From Pedobacter gandavensis (GTDB lineage: Bacteria; Bacteroidota; Bacteroidia; Sphingobacteriales; Sphingobacteriaceae): a stretch of 64,000 nt of DNA. How positions within the stretch are numbered: the stretch's first letter is position 1; each line of letters begins with the position of its first letter. The translations under genes were made by a program, and so were the position numbers. Under the pieces are notes generated by a model. The model was not told the DNA's origin and did not search any database. It saw only the letters and a list, made by a program, of their open reading frames with translations. Shown here one piece after another: positions 52,878 to 55,409 of the stretch. The stretch lies in assembly GCF_014172405.1 (NCBI RefSeq), contig NZ_WNXC01000006.1, positions 248,001 through 312,000 on the forward strand, in the 5' to 3' direction.

Positions 52878-55409
52878 TTAATACCTGAATTTCATCGTGA
52901 TATAGGGGTAATAACCCTCTTTGGAATGTGCCAATTGTGCCTGGATCACGGTTAAAACTGCCGGAGCATAATATAGTCCCCCTCCATAGCTATAATGCCA
53001 TGTTTCTGACTGATCATCCTTGGTCCACACCCTCCCAGTATCAAAGAAGGCCGTTATTCCAAATTGTCCGGGTAAAATGTATCCGCCAACATTGGCTAGT
53101 TTTGTGCGAAGTTCCAGGTTATTATACAAACTATGTTGCCCGCCAAAGCGGAAAGAGCGGAAGCCCAATAAATTTCCTTGTCCGCCGATATAATTTGACT
53201 GATAAAATGCCTGATTTCCAAAAGTAAGCCCTCCGCCGGTCCGATTCGCCAGCACAAATCGCTTAGAATTCCCTATCCTTTGGTAAAAAGTATAGCTGGC
53301 CAGCACCTGTACCGACGATTCCGCAGCCCGATTTAGCCCCGCATAAAACCGCAGCTTGGCGTCTAAGTAACTTCCAGAAGAAGGCAACACTTCATTGTTT
53401 CTGGTATTTCGATTAAAACCAACCTTCAATCCGGTATACCATTTATCCTGATCAATCGTAGCACTATCTGGAGAATGCAACATTGATGTCTGGCTGATGA
53501 ACCGATCGTTATTATCATCCTTACTAAAATGATAGTATTGAAAGGTTGGTCCAACAGTCCAGGTATTTTGATGACTACGCCACCTTAGCGCAGGGTCAAA
53601 ATCATACAAACCAAACCTGGCCCTATAGTATAGTATATAGTCGCCAACCTTAGCATAAGGTGTTTCATTACCTAGACCAAAGAAATTCTGTGAATTCTCT
53701 GGTGCAAATGCACTTGCCTGCAAAACGATATCTGCCTTTCCCAAGGCCTGAAACCATTCGCTGGAATAGTTGAAGCTAAAAGCATTGGTTTTAAAAGAAT
53801 GTAGAAAAGAAAAAGAATGAATGTTTCCGAATGGCAGTTTCCGGAAGCCTGGGCTCATTATTTTGTAGGATAAACCCATAGAAAGGCCATCATCGGCATT
53901 AAAACCTGCATTGAGCAAGGTCATATTCCTCGAATATAAATCTGTAGGCACGTAATGCGTATTACTGGTGTCATTATCCAGGTGTTTAATCAAGCGGGAA
54001 GCTGCTCCAGAATAAGTAATGTCTTTTTCCATTCCATAAAACGGCACCTTACGTTTTGCCTCCAACACCTCATAATGTTTATCCCCTTCCCCATTGACCA
54101 TGCGCAGGCGTATATTGGAGTTTTTATTTTGGAGTATCACCCGGTCATTCCCATCTCTCACATACAAGCGAATCTCTTTGGTTACTGAAGGATCGTAATT
54201 GCGGTTAAAAATCTGCTCCCCTACCTGACCATACTTATCTAGTTTTTTTAGACTGACGTTTAAACCGGAATTGCCATGATCCCTGATCTCAAGCAATTCA
54301 TTCTTATTACTTCCCTGGACGTCAACAATCCGATTCATAAACCGATAATAGGTTTTCATCGTTTCCGGCAGGGCTTTCCTTCGTTCTTTCAGTTGTGCCA
54401 GCAATTGATCATGACGAAGGGAATAGCTTGGTTCTGGCAAACGCTTTAAGGCATGTTCAAAAACCTCATCCGTCATGGCGTCAGAAAATTCCTGAACAAT
54501 ACGATCCCATTCTTCTTCCCCTATCGTACCAAGGATCCGGCCATATAGACTCCTACCTTCCCAAAAAAACCAATTGATATTTTTCACGTTACGCTCATAA
54601 CCTTGGATCATGGGCAGCAACCAGGAAACCTGGGCAAAGCGGGGGATCAAACCTTCAGAAAGATAATACACCATGTCACGATCTCGGGGAACCACAACAT
54701 AACGAATGCCAAGAGCCGTTTTTTCAGGAATCCAGCGCCATTGATCCTCATGTCGATCCCAATCTCCCAACAGATAATCTAAGGCTTTAGCTTTTAGCAA
54801 CAGTGGCGCATCCACGGAATTTTCATTGTTGTCATTTAGCTTTCTCAACATTTTTTCCGTGTTGTCTGTGTCTCCTTCAGGCTCTCTTTCTTCCAGTAAA
54901 CAAAGACTATTTTCGAAAACCGGGGCAAACTCCCCAAGTGCAGTGTCTGGAACCACCCAACCAATCATCGGATTGCTGTGTGGAATTCCTGCGGCATAGG
55001 CAAAGACAGGAACCACCAAGGCAGAAAAAGGGTGTTGAGCAGACATATTATCTTTTACGATATCTTTAGCAAATGTTGCTTGTAACTCCAGGGGCAATAG
55101 GACTTCGGGGTATTTTTCTACAGATCGCAACACCCATTCTTTTCCTTGTTTATCTACCATGCGTAAGGAATGGGTTTGATTGCCTCCGCCTCTTTTAATT
55201 GGCGTCAGTCCACCTTTAATCTGTGATAAGCGAATCAGGGGTACCCTGGTTGAATCGGCATATTCTTTCCGGTAATTCTCTCCAAACAGAAAGCGGTGAA
55301 ATTTCCCTACCTGATCATATTTCGGATAAATGCTCACTTTTATGGAATCCTGAGCATGGCTACAAAACCCCGTAAATAGCAACATAGAAAAAAGTAAACG
55401 TTTCCCCAT
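52878..55409 (-). CDS. BamA/TamA-type outer-membrane barrel fused to a kinase-like N-domain
   Basis: 843 residues, signal peptide (LLFSMLLFTGFCSHAQ). Residues ~60-340 read like an atypical kinase fold: a glycine-rich stretch GLTPIKRGGGNQT, a strand with basic residues (EWVLRSVEK, Arg95/Lys99), a catalytic-loop-like GDWDRHEDQW (Asp218, His220) and an RDRD pair (Asp243, Asp245) where metal-binding Asp would sit. The order resembles HipA/Fam20/PI4-kinase-like proteins. From ~480 the protein is a surface-antigen barrel (FNADDGLSMGLSYK, SNYIGGQGNLLGFR, FGITAFFDTGRVWT, final MKFRY). The barrel call is firm; the kinase reading is my inference. Function unknown. Confidence 0.85.
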   Translation of the reverse strand: MGKRLLFSMLLFTGFCSHAQDSIKVSIYPKYDQVGKFHRFLFGENYRKEYADSTRVPLIRLSQIKGGLTPIKRGGGNQTHSLRMVDKQGKEWVLRSVEKYPEVLLPLELQATFAKDIVKDNMSAQHPFSALVVPVFAYAAGIPHSNPMIGWVVPDTALGEFAPVFENSLCLLEEREPEGDTDNTEKMLRKLNDNNENSVDAPLLLKAKALDYLLGDWDRHEDQWRWIPEKTALGIRYVVVPRDRDMVYYLSEGLIPRFAQVSWLLPMIQGYERNVKNINWFFWEGRSLYGRILGTIGEEEWDRIVQEFSDAMTDEVFEHALKRLPEPSYSLRHDQLLAQLKERRKALPETMKTYYRFMNRIVDVQGSNKNELLEIRDHGNSGLNVSLKKLDKYGQVGEQIFNRNYDPSVTKEIRLYVRDGNDRVILQNKNSNIRLRMVNGEGDKHYEVLEAKRKVPFYGMEKDITYSGAASRLIKHLDNDTSNTHYVPTDLYSRNMTLLNAGFNADDGLSMGLSYKIMSPGFRKLPFGNIHSFSFLHSFKTNAFSFNYSSEWFQALGKADIVLQASAFAPENSQNFFGLGNETPYAKVGDYILYYRARFGLYDFDPALRWRSHQNTWTVGPTFQYYHFSKDDNNDRFISQTSMLHSPDSATIDQDKWYTGLKVGFNRNTRNNEVLPSSGSYLDAKLRFYAGLNRAAESSVQVLASYTFYQRIGNSKRFVLANRTGGGLTFGNQAFYQSNYIGGQGNLLGFRSFRFGGQHSLYNNLELRTKLANVGGYILPGQFGITAFFDTGRVWTKDDQSETWHYSYGGGLYYAPAVLTVIQAQLAHSKEGYYPYITMKFRY

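Follow-up and report, generated by a model that had tools for sequence, protein, structure and literature searches.

Omp85 proteins such as BamA and TamA hold their N-terminal parts in the periplasm, and kinases are normally cytoplasmic, where ATP is. In a 64,000-nucleotide stretch of the Pedobacter gandavensis genome (assembly GCF_014172405.1, contig NZ_WNXC01000006.1, positions 248,001 to 312,000; hereafter the window), we analysed a minus-strand open reading frame (ORF) of 843 amino acids (52878-55409) whose product appears to combine an exported kinase-like domain with an Omp85-type barrel. A related arrangement was described by Heinz and Lithgow (2014), who distinguished among the Omp85 proteins a subfamily 'Metallo', with PF00149 in front of the barrel, and a subfamily 'noNterm' (PMC4104836); they called PF00149 a metalloprotease, and the main text of their article does not contain the word kinase. 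Relatives of the window protein in which a phosphatase domain precedes the kinase-like domain and the barrel fit the description of 'Metallo' in that article, namely an Omp85 barrel without POTRA domains and with PF00149 at the front (the comparison is by description only), and the phosphatase-barrel fusion has been in print since 2014. The window protein, in contrast, has no PF00149 match in a Pfam scan. As for its other half, no paper among those listed by searches of the open-licence literature concerns an Omp85 barrel fused to a kinase-like domain, and a report may exist elsewhere; a paper on Omp76 of Riemerella (PMC10281475) has no bearing on the kinase-barrel family.

We consider it probable that the window protein is an active phosphotransferase, anchored on the periplasmic side of the outer membrane. 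In this model, the signal peptide would export the protein and the C-terminal Omp85-type barrel of 16 strands would insert into the outer membrane, while a kinase-fold domain of the atypical branch (PI4K II, CotH and HipA-like) would hang beneath it in the periplasm, joined to the barrel by a beta-rich connector at the place where BamA and TamA carry POTRA domains. Phosphate (or another group) would then be transferred onto a component of the envelope, either a lipid of the outer membrane, a glycan or a protein. The domain is presumably periplasmic because this is where the N-terminal parts of BamA and TamA lie, and because a crude scan shows a lipobox in a minority of relatives. That it is catalytic, with transfer of phosphate or another group as its most likely activity, we infer from the joint presence of the glycine-rich loop, R95/K99, D120, D218 and D243.

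Domain layout and predicted fold

The features of the gene are as follows.

52878..55409, minus strand: whole gene, 843 aa, with signal peptide, predicted kinase-like domain, beta connector and Omp85 barrel
55353..55409, minus strand: Sec signal peptide, residues 1-19, read by eye, without a canonical lipobox
54333..55352, minus strand: predicted kinase-like domain of protein-kinase-like (PKL) fold, residues 20-359; AlphaFold2 predicted local distance difference test (pLDDT) 92.5 for 20-372, Foldseek and VIA-align kinase matches
55182..55190, minus strand: glycine-rich loop G74-G76, between predicted strands; G74 in 72/78, G75 in 73/78 and G76 in 66/78 rows
55113..55127, minus strand: basic strand R95 to K99, at the place of the beta-3 lysine; R95 72/78, K99 73/78; strand 91-96
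55050..55052, minus strand: D120, candidate ion-pair acid in a predicted alpha-C-like helix (113-124); 76/78, putative role
54738..54767, minus strand: catalytic-loop motif GDWDRHEDQW, 215-224, with putative catalytic Asp218; conservation, and profile alignment onto the CotH and HipA catalytic loops
54675..54689, minus strand: putative metal-binding motif PRDRD, 241-245, with Asp243; conserved, aligned with PYDYD of CotH
53979..54329, minus strand: beta-rich connector, 361-477, at the position of the POTRA domains of BamA/TamA; secondary structure of the full-length model
52890..53930, minus strand: 16-strand Omp85 barrel, 494-840; PF01103, TamA/BamA Z 27, strands counted in the full-length model

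The motifs that an earlier note, made from the sequence without database searches, had read as kinase-like are indeed found in this ORF (G74-G76, R95/K99, GDWDRHEDQW at 215-224 and PRDRD at 241-245), behind the signal peptide that it had also proposed, here assigned to residues 1-19; cleavage would follow A19, as read by eye, and a crude pattern scan found no lipobox in the window protein. The BamA/TamA-type barrel predicted in the same note is borne out by the Pfam Omp85 model (PF01103, E 1.5e-15, 58 bits against a cut-off of 24) and by a full-length model of residues 20-843 (pLDDT 90.2, predicted TM-score (pTM) 0.84, 62 sequences), in which the barrel matches TamA with Z 27.3 and BamA with Z 27.2 (best Foldseek E 1.4e-11). 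The model match and the count of 16 strands are those of the Omp85 superfamily. Unlike BamA and TamA, the window protein has no POTRA domains, as neither a POTRA model matched it at E <= 1 nor a beta-alpha-alpha-beta-beta pattern was seen between residues 359 and 494 of the full-length model, and it scores 30.7 bits against a cut-off of 297 with the BamA equivalog model of NCBIfam.

The AlphaFold2 model of residues 20-372, built on an alignment of 80 sequences (the window protein and the named loci), has a pLDDT of 92.5 and a pTM of 0.91 and shows a predicted two-lobed PKL fold. Its elements follow the order of kinases from the strands and glycine-rich loop through to D243: strands, the glycine-rich loop, the R95 strand, the D120 helix and a strand closing at E173-E174, the likely counterpart of the kinase hinge, then helices, the catalytic loop at 216-224, two strands and D243. 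A Foldseek search of the PDB gave eight matches at E <= 0.001, namely three chains of CtkA (the top match, E 9.6e-5), two of PI4K II alpha (PI4K II E 2.2e-4), two HipT-type kinases, one of which carries only the title of a bacterial kinase complex, and Rio2. The remaining 42 listed rows are mostly titled kinases or pseudokinases, and YihE, MSMEG_1954, Rv3197 and the pre-40S chains among the Foldseek rows are kinase-like too. With VIA-align, the best match was PI4K II beta (Z 15.1 over 261 residues at 4.5 A), followed by CotH (Z 14.0, 245 residues, 4.1 A) and CtkA (Z 13.5), with mTOR (12.6), VPS34 (11.7), actin-fragmin kinase (11.0) and HipA (10.8) further down. The suggestion of a kinase-like N-terminal fold, to be compared with HipA and Fam20, thus agrees with the prediction, since its best solved matches by both methods are kinases; Fam20 is not among the 50 listed structural-match rows, an absence that weighs neither for nor against it.

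Searches by sequence were by themselves too weak to reveal this fold. No Pfam or NCBIfam model matched the kinase-like part of the window protein or of the relatives scanned above its cut-off, only the barrel of the window protein being above or near one, and genome annotation misses the domain for this reason; sub-threshold library matches in relatives were few (e.g. DUF1598 in L063, E 0.0019; L, G and f numbers are our labels for loci, genomes and families). At E <= 1, PF00454 (PI3_PI4_kinase) matched neither the window protein nor nine relatives, and it matched 0/247 sampled genomes of the phylum as a bridge family; PF08757 (CotH) and PF07804 (HipA) or HipA_C likewise gave no Pfam match at E <= 1 with the window protein and relatives. 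Neither phmmer nor profile searches of the PDB gave a significant kinase match, the CtkA hit (E 0.31, at profile positions 202-231, where the catalytic loop is expected) being non-significant. In profile-profile comparison by hhalign, the family aligned with CotH at E 0.0022 and a probability of 13%, placing GDWDRH on the G-x-W-D-x-Y catalytic loop and PRDRD on PYDYD, and with HipA at E 0.042 and a probability of 1.2%, with the catalytic loops aligned; two unrelated control families gave E 0.28 and 0.52, in shallow alignments of 4 and 3 rows.

The likeness to each of these kinases has its limits. PI4K II alpha/beta is the best structural match, but it shares 10-12% identity with the window domain, which appears to be exported, is fused to an outer-membrane barrel and has no PF00454 match. 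CotH shares the aligned catalytic and metal motifs, but it reached a low hhalign probability and forms a separate family in the phylum (46/118 genomes). In contrast to HipA, CtkA and HipT, the window protein carries an export signal, and no toxin-antitoxin partner was noticed beside its gene. Of the HipT-type Foldseek matches, the entry 7vkb is referred to in a survey of Legionella (PMC9758233) as a HipA-like structure from that genus.

Conservation of the putative active site and architecture of the family

Relatives at E <= 0.001 of the N-terminal 503 amino acids were present in 112/296 sampled genomes of Bacteroidota, and a scan of named genomes gave at least 594 places with relatives, the closest named ones among the matches listed being from Pedobacter (90% identity in L081). 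Conservation was read from 78 homologous rows, including the window protein, that represent whole-sequence matches; four duplicates were excluded, as were two additional copies of the window protein, and about 30 of the 78 rows come from the window's own genus. Across these rows the residues kept were R95 in 72, K99 in 73, D120 in 76, E173 in 74, D216 in 76, D218 in 71, R219 in 75, H220 in 70, Q223 in 69, W226 in 78, D243 in 75 and D245 in 72. Judged from this alignment, the named motifs are not a product of chance, because they are kept across the 78 homologues, and Asp218 and Asp243, which the earlier note had singled out for mutation, are conserved; the window protein has both the catalytic-loop Asp and the metal-binding Asp that mark the PKL superfamily.

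Since the 80 named loci had been chosen for their score and for carrying the motif DWDR[HQ]x[DGK][QN]W, motif conservation among them (alignments A2 and A5) arises by construction. We also counted 12 residues in a set of 73 rows that was not motif-selected and in which the window protein occurs twice: D218 was kept in 66 and D243 in 70. By architecture, all 34 phosphatase-kinase-barrel rows of this set keep all 12 residues, each residue is kept in 11 to 13 of the 13 stand-alone rows, and each is kept in 19 to 26 of the 26 kinase-barrel rows. A larger set of 157 rows (156 different, as the window protein is in it twice, and 84 of them from motif-selected loci) comprises 73 kinase-barrel proteins, 69 phosphatase-kinase-barrel proteins and 15 kinase-like domains alone, as labelled from BLAST matches and protein lengths. 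All four core active-site residues are intact in 149 of these rows. The kinase-barrel proteins that lost at least one of them are six divergent members (L071 and L073 to L077), which from their sequences look like pseudokinases; the two stand-alone losses concern one copy in L067 and one in L066, where three stand-alone copies are adjacent, two of them sharing a strand and the third on the opposite one (L066:4129-9148).

The phosphatase domain of the fused relatives L007 and L044 is Metallophos (PF00149) by Pfam and stands ahead of the kinase-like domain; six PDB sequences matched the front domain of L007, all of them purple acid phosphatases (best E 2.6e-4). In L069, three genes that directly follow one another on a single strand encode a kinase of 518 aa, a metallophosphoesterase of 403 aa and an Omp85 protein of 394 aa; L068, from the same genus, has identical clusters in identical order (Pfam was run on L069 only). 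These three adjacent genes are strong evidence, from one lineage, that kinase, phosphatase and barrel work together as a unit. A family tree, built with FastTree only and containing several long branches, implies 16 changes between architectures. It groups the window protein, with good support, in a set of 37 rows of which 26 carry the phosphatase, so that the window copy has probably lost its phosphatase, depending on where the tree is rooted. Lipobox matches were found in 10/69 phosphatase-kinase-barrel, 5/73 kinase-barrel and 4/15 stand-alone rows of the larger set, by a crude pattern of which some matches look false.

Proposed activity and its alternatives

Several observations weigh against an active phosphotransferase at the outer membrane. 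ATP is scarce in the periplasm. The beta-3 strand has Arg95, with Lys99 four residues further on, and D218 is lost in 7/78 rows, so that the fold can serve without catalysis. The profile-profile probabilities given above for CotH and HipA are low and the controls shallow, and the eight Foldseek matches have query TM-scores of just 0.33-0.45, with root-mean-square deviations of 7.9-10.3 A, so that the kinship to solved kinases, as far as the model goes, is at superfamily level only. In addition, the window copy lies outside the gene cluster with PPK1 and HD domains in which relatives recur (see below), and in 69/105 genomes no family member has a PPK1 within 20 kb. The domain could be a pseudokinase that transfers no phosphate but, on binding a nucleotide, polyphosphate or a lipid, acts as a switch for the barrel or for a partner. 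The Arg in place of Lys, the ATP-poor periplasm and the loss of core residues from 6/73 kinase-barrel and 2/15 stand-alone rows, which suggests that some members of the family work without catalysis, would all suit this explanation. We nevertheless think it unlikely, as the four core residues are intact in 149/157 rows (84 of them motif-selected) and the 34/34 phosphatase-fused rows that were not motif-selected keep all 12 residues; moreover, the Legionella survey describes another bacterial kinase-like family that has Arg for the catalytic Lys in an otherwise conserved site, and that lacks an identified ion-pair Glu (PMC9758233).

The fold by itself does not dictate the chemistry, and a transfer other than phosphorylation (AMPylation, glutamylation or similar) might be catalysed. 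SelO and SidJ are precedents for non-phosphorylating transferases on a kinase fold, and Gln223 (69/78) occupies the catalytic-loop position at which classical kinases have Asn. We give this option little credence, however, as there is no positive sign of it and the nearest solved folds are lipid and protein kinases. It would be similarly surprising if the kinase-like and phosphatase domains were passengers taken to the cell surface by the Omp85 barrel, by type Vd secretion as in PlpD, an Omp85 protein whose N-terminal enzyme reaches the surface according to Heinz and Lithgow (PMC4104836): the window protein lacks the POTRA domain that is present in PlpD, and L068 and L069 encode the kinase-like part and the phosphatase in distinct genes, with a lipobox in the kinase-like product, so that the barrel there does not carry a passenger of its own. 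Within the preferred reading of an active periplasmic phosphotransferase, the PPK1 genes near relatives suggest polyphosphate as a candidate phosphate donor. An outer-membrane phosphorylation switch can be imagined, in which one barrel would carry, in the periplasm, both an active kinase and a purple acid phosphatase that counteracts it (the kinase alone in the window), fed by a non-ATP donor such as polyphosphate and acting on an envelope component. A donor of this type would account for the company that relatives keep with PPK1, but the switch in its entirety strikes us as rather doubtful.

The presence of the family in more than a third of the sampled genomes of the phylum, most members examined having an outer-membrane barrel and intact active-site residues, raises the question of phosphorylation in the periplasm, its donor and its target. 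Handles on the function are offered by the relatives fused to a phosphatase and by the neighbours that recur (PPK1, HD-PycTM, class III cyclase and SdiA-regulated protein).

Gene neighbourhood and further observations

The window copy is solitary, with a gene resembling L,D-transpeptidases on one side and one resembling YdcF on the other (both named by eye). A paralogue in the same genome (39% identity) closes a row consisting of HD-PycTM, PPK1, an SdiA-regulated protein, c2 and the paralogue itself, as assigned to clusters by BLAST with Pfam names taken from the relative L086; its PPK1 was confirmed at G000:C18:142863. In 101 neighbourhoods (100 loci and the window; mostly the best-matching loci of the named-genome scan, with close relatives over-represented), HD-PycTM occurred 48 times, c2 44 times, the SdiA-regulated protein 42 times and PPK1 37 times. 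At L086:2526-13067 and similar loci, the order is HD-PycTM, PPK1, SdiA-regulated protein (with a lipobox, by eye), the kinase-barrel protein with or without phosphatase, and c2. Attempts to identify c2, a neighbour protein of about 790 aa, gave no assignment. PycTM is a known Pycsar effector domain, which in the recurring cluster is joined to an HD domain and adjoins the polyphosphate kinase gene.

PPK1 is nearly universal in the phylum (267/296 genomes), and its closeness to the family was compared with chance. It lies within 20 kb of a family member in 36/105 genomes, where about 1.9 would be expected on the assumption of a 4.3-Mb genome and ignoring contig ends, and in 11/23 families; within 10 kb it does so in 19 of the 105 genomes. 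This count covers 139 family places, with the weak rows G127:C5 and G247:C11 left out, and 105 of the 112 genomes, since G080, G117, G146, G173, G279 and G280 have no listed PPK1 and G247 was excluded for its weak match. The families differ, with f38 accounting for 18/36 at 7.7 to 16.7 kb, f20 for 1/25 and f32 for 0/11, and the closeness in f38 is perhaps simple synteny. In 20 further loci with 6-kb flanks, from families picked by choice and not by random draw, an HD and/or PycTM gene was near the family gene in 14.

In three f38 loci and one f49 locus, genes of one cluster adjoin the family gene, and the members of this cluster in L209 and L223 are class III cyclases with TPR repeats (Pfam). 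A cyclase is found beside the family gene at L209:2279-8646, L211:4768-11977 and L223:4768-9372, and in L211 the HD part and the PycTM-like part are each encoded by a gene of their own. In PADLOC, the HD-PycTM neighbour matches PycTM (E 1.5e-14) and the cyclase neighbour matches PycC (E 1.2e-7), with nothing at E <= 0.01 for the window protein, its phosphatase-fused relative L007 or the proteins c2 and c3. We weighed a defence island as an explanation and regard it as less probable, PPK1 being a core gene and these four proteins having no PADLOC match. A phage origin is not supported either, as there was no match in the phage collection, and the five plasmid records that match are all from Bacteroidota.

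Two genomes of family f31 have atypical kinase genes side by side, with a CotH gene at a distance of about 1.4 and 2.2 kb from the region that matched in the family member (G059:C15:16534-20158 and G109:C10:18034-24674); in G109, PPK1 lies on the other side. A record titled Williamsia sp., an actinobacterium (L113), holds a typical Bacteroidota cluster; probably this metagenome-assembled genome bears the wrong name or is contaminated. In L061 to L065, the stand-alone copies are 423 to 425 aa long. Those of L061 and L063 begin with a membrane segment, as judged by eye, and have Cys-Phe-Glu-Cys just before the last residue. On a plasmid of Hymenobacter monticola (NZ_CP094537.1), a stand-alone copy (L203:5824-7242) directly follows a TolC-adaptor-RND efflux set, and downstream of it lie a two-component system and a PAP2 phosphatase.

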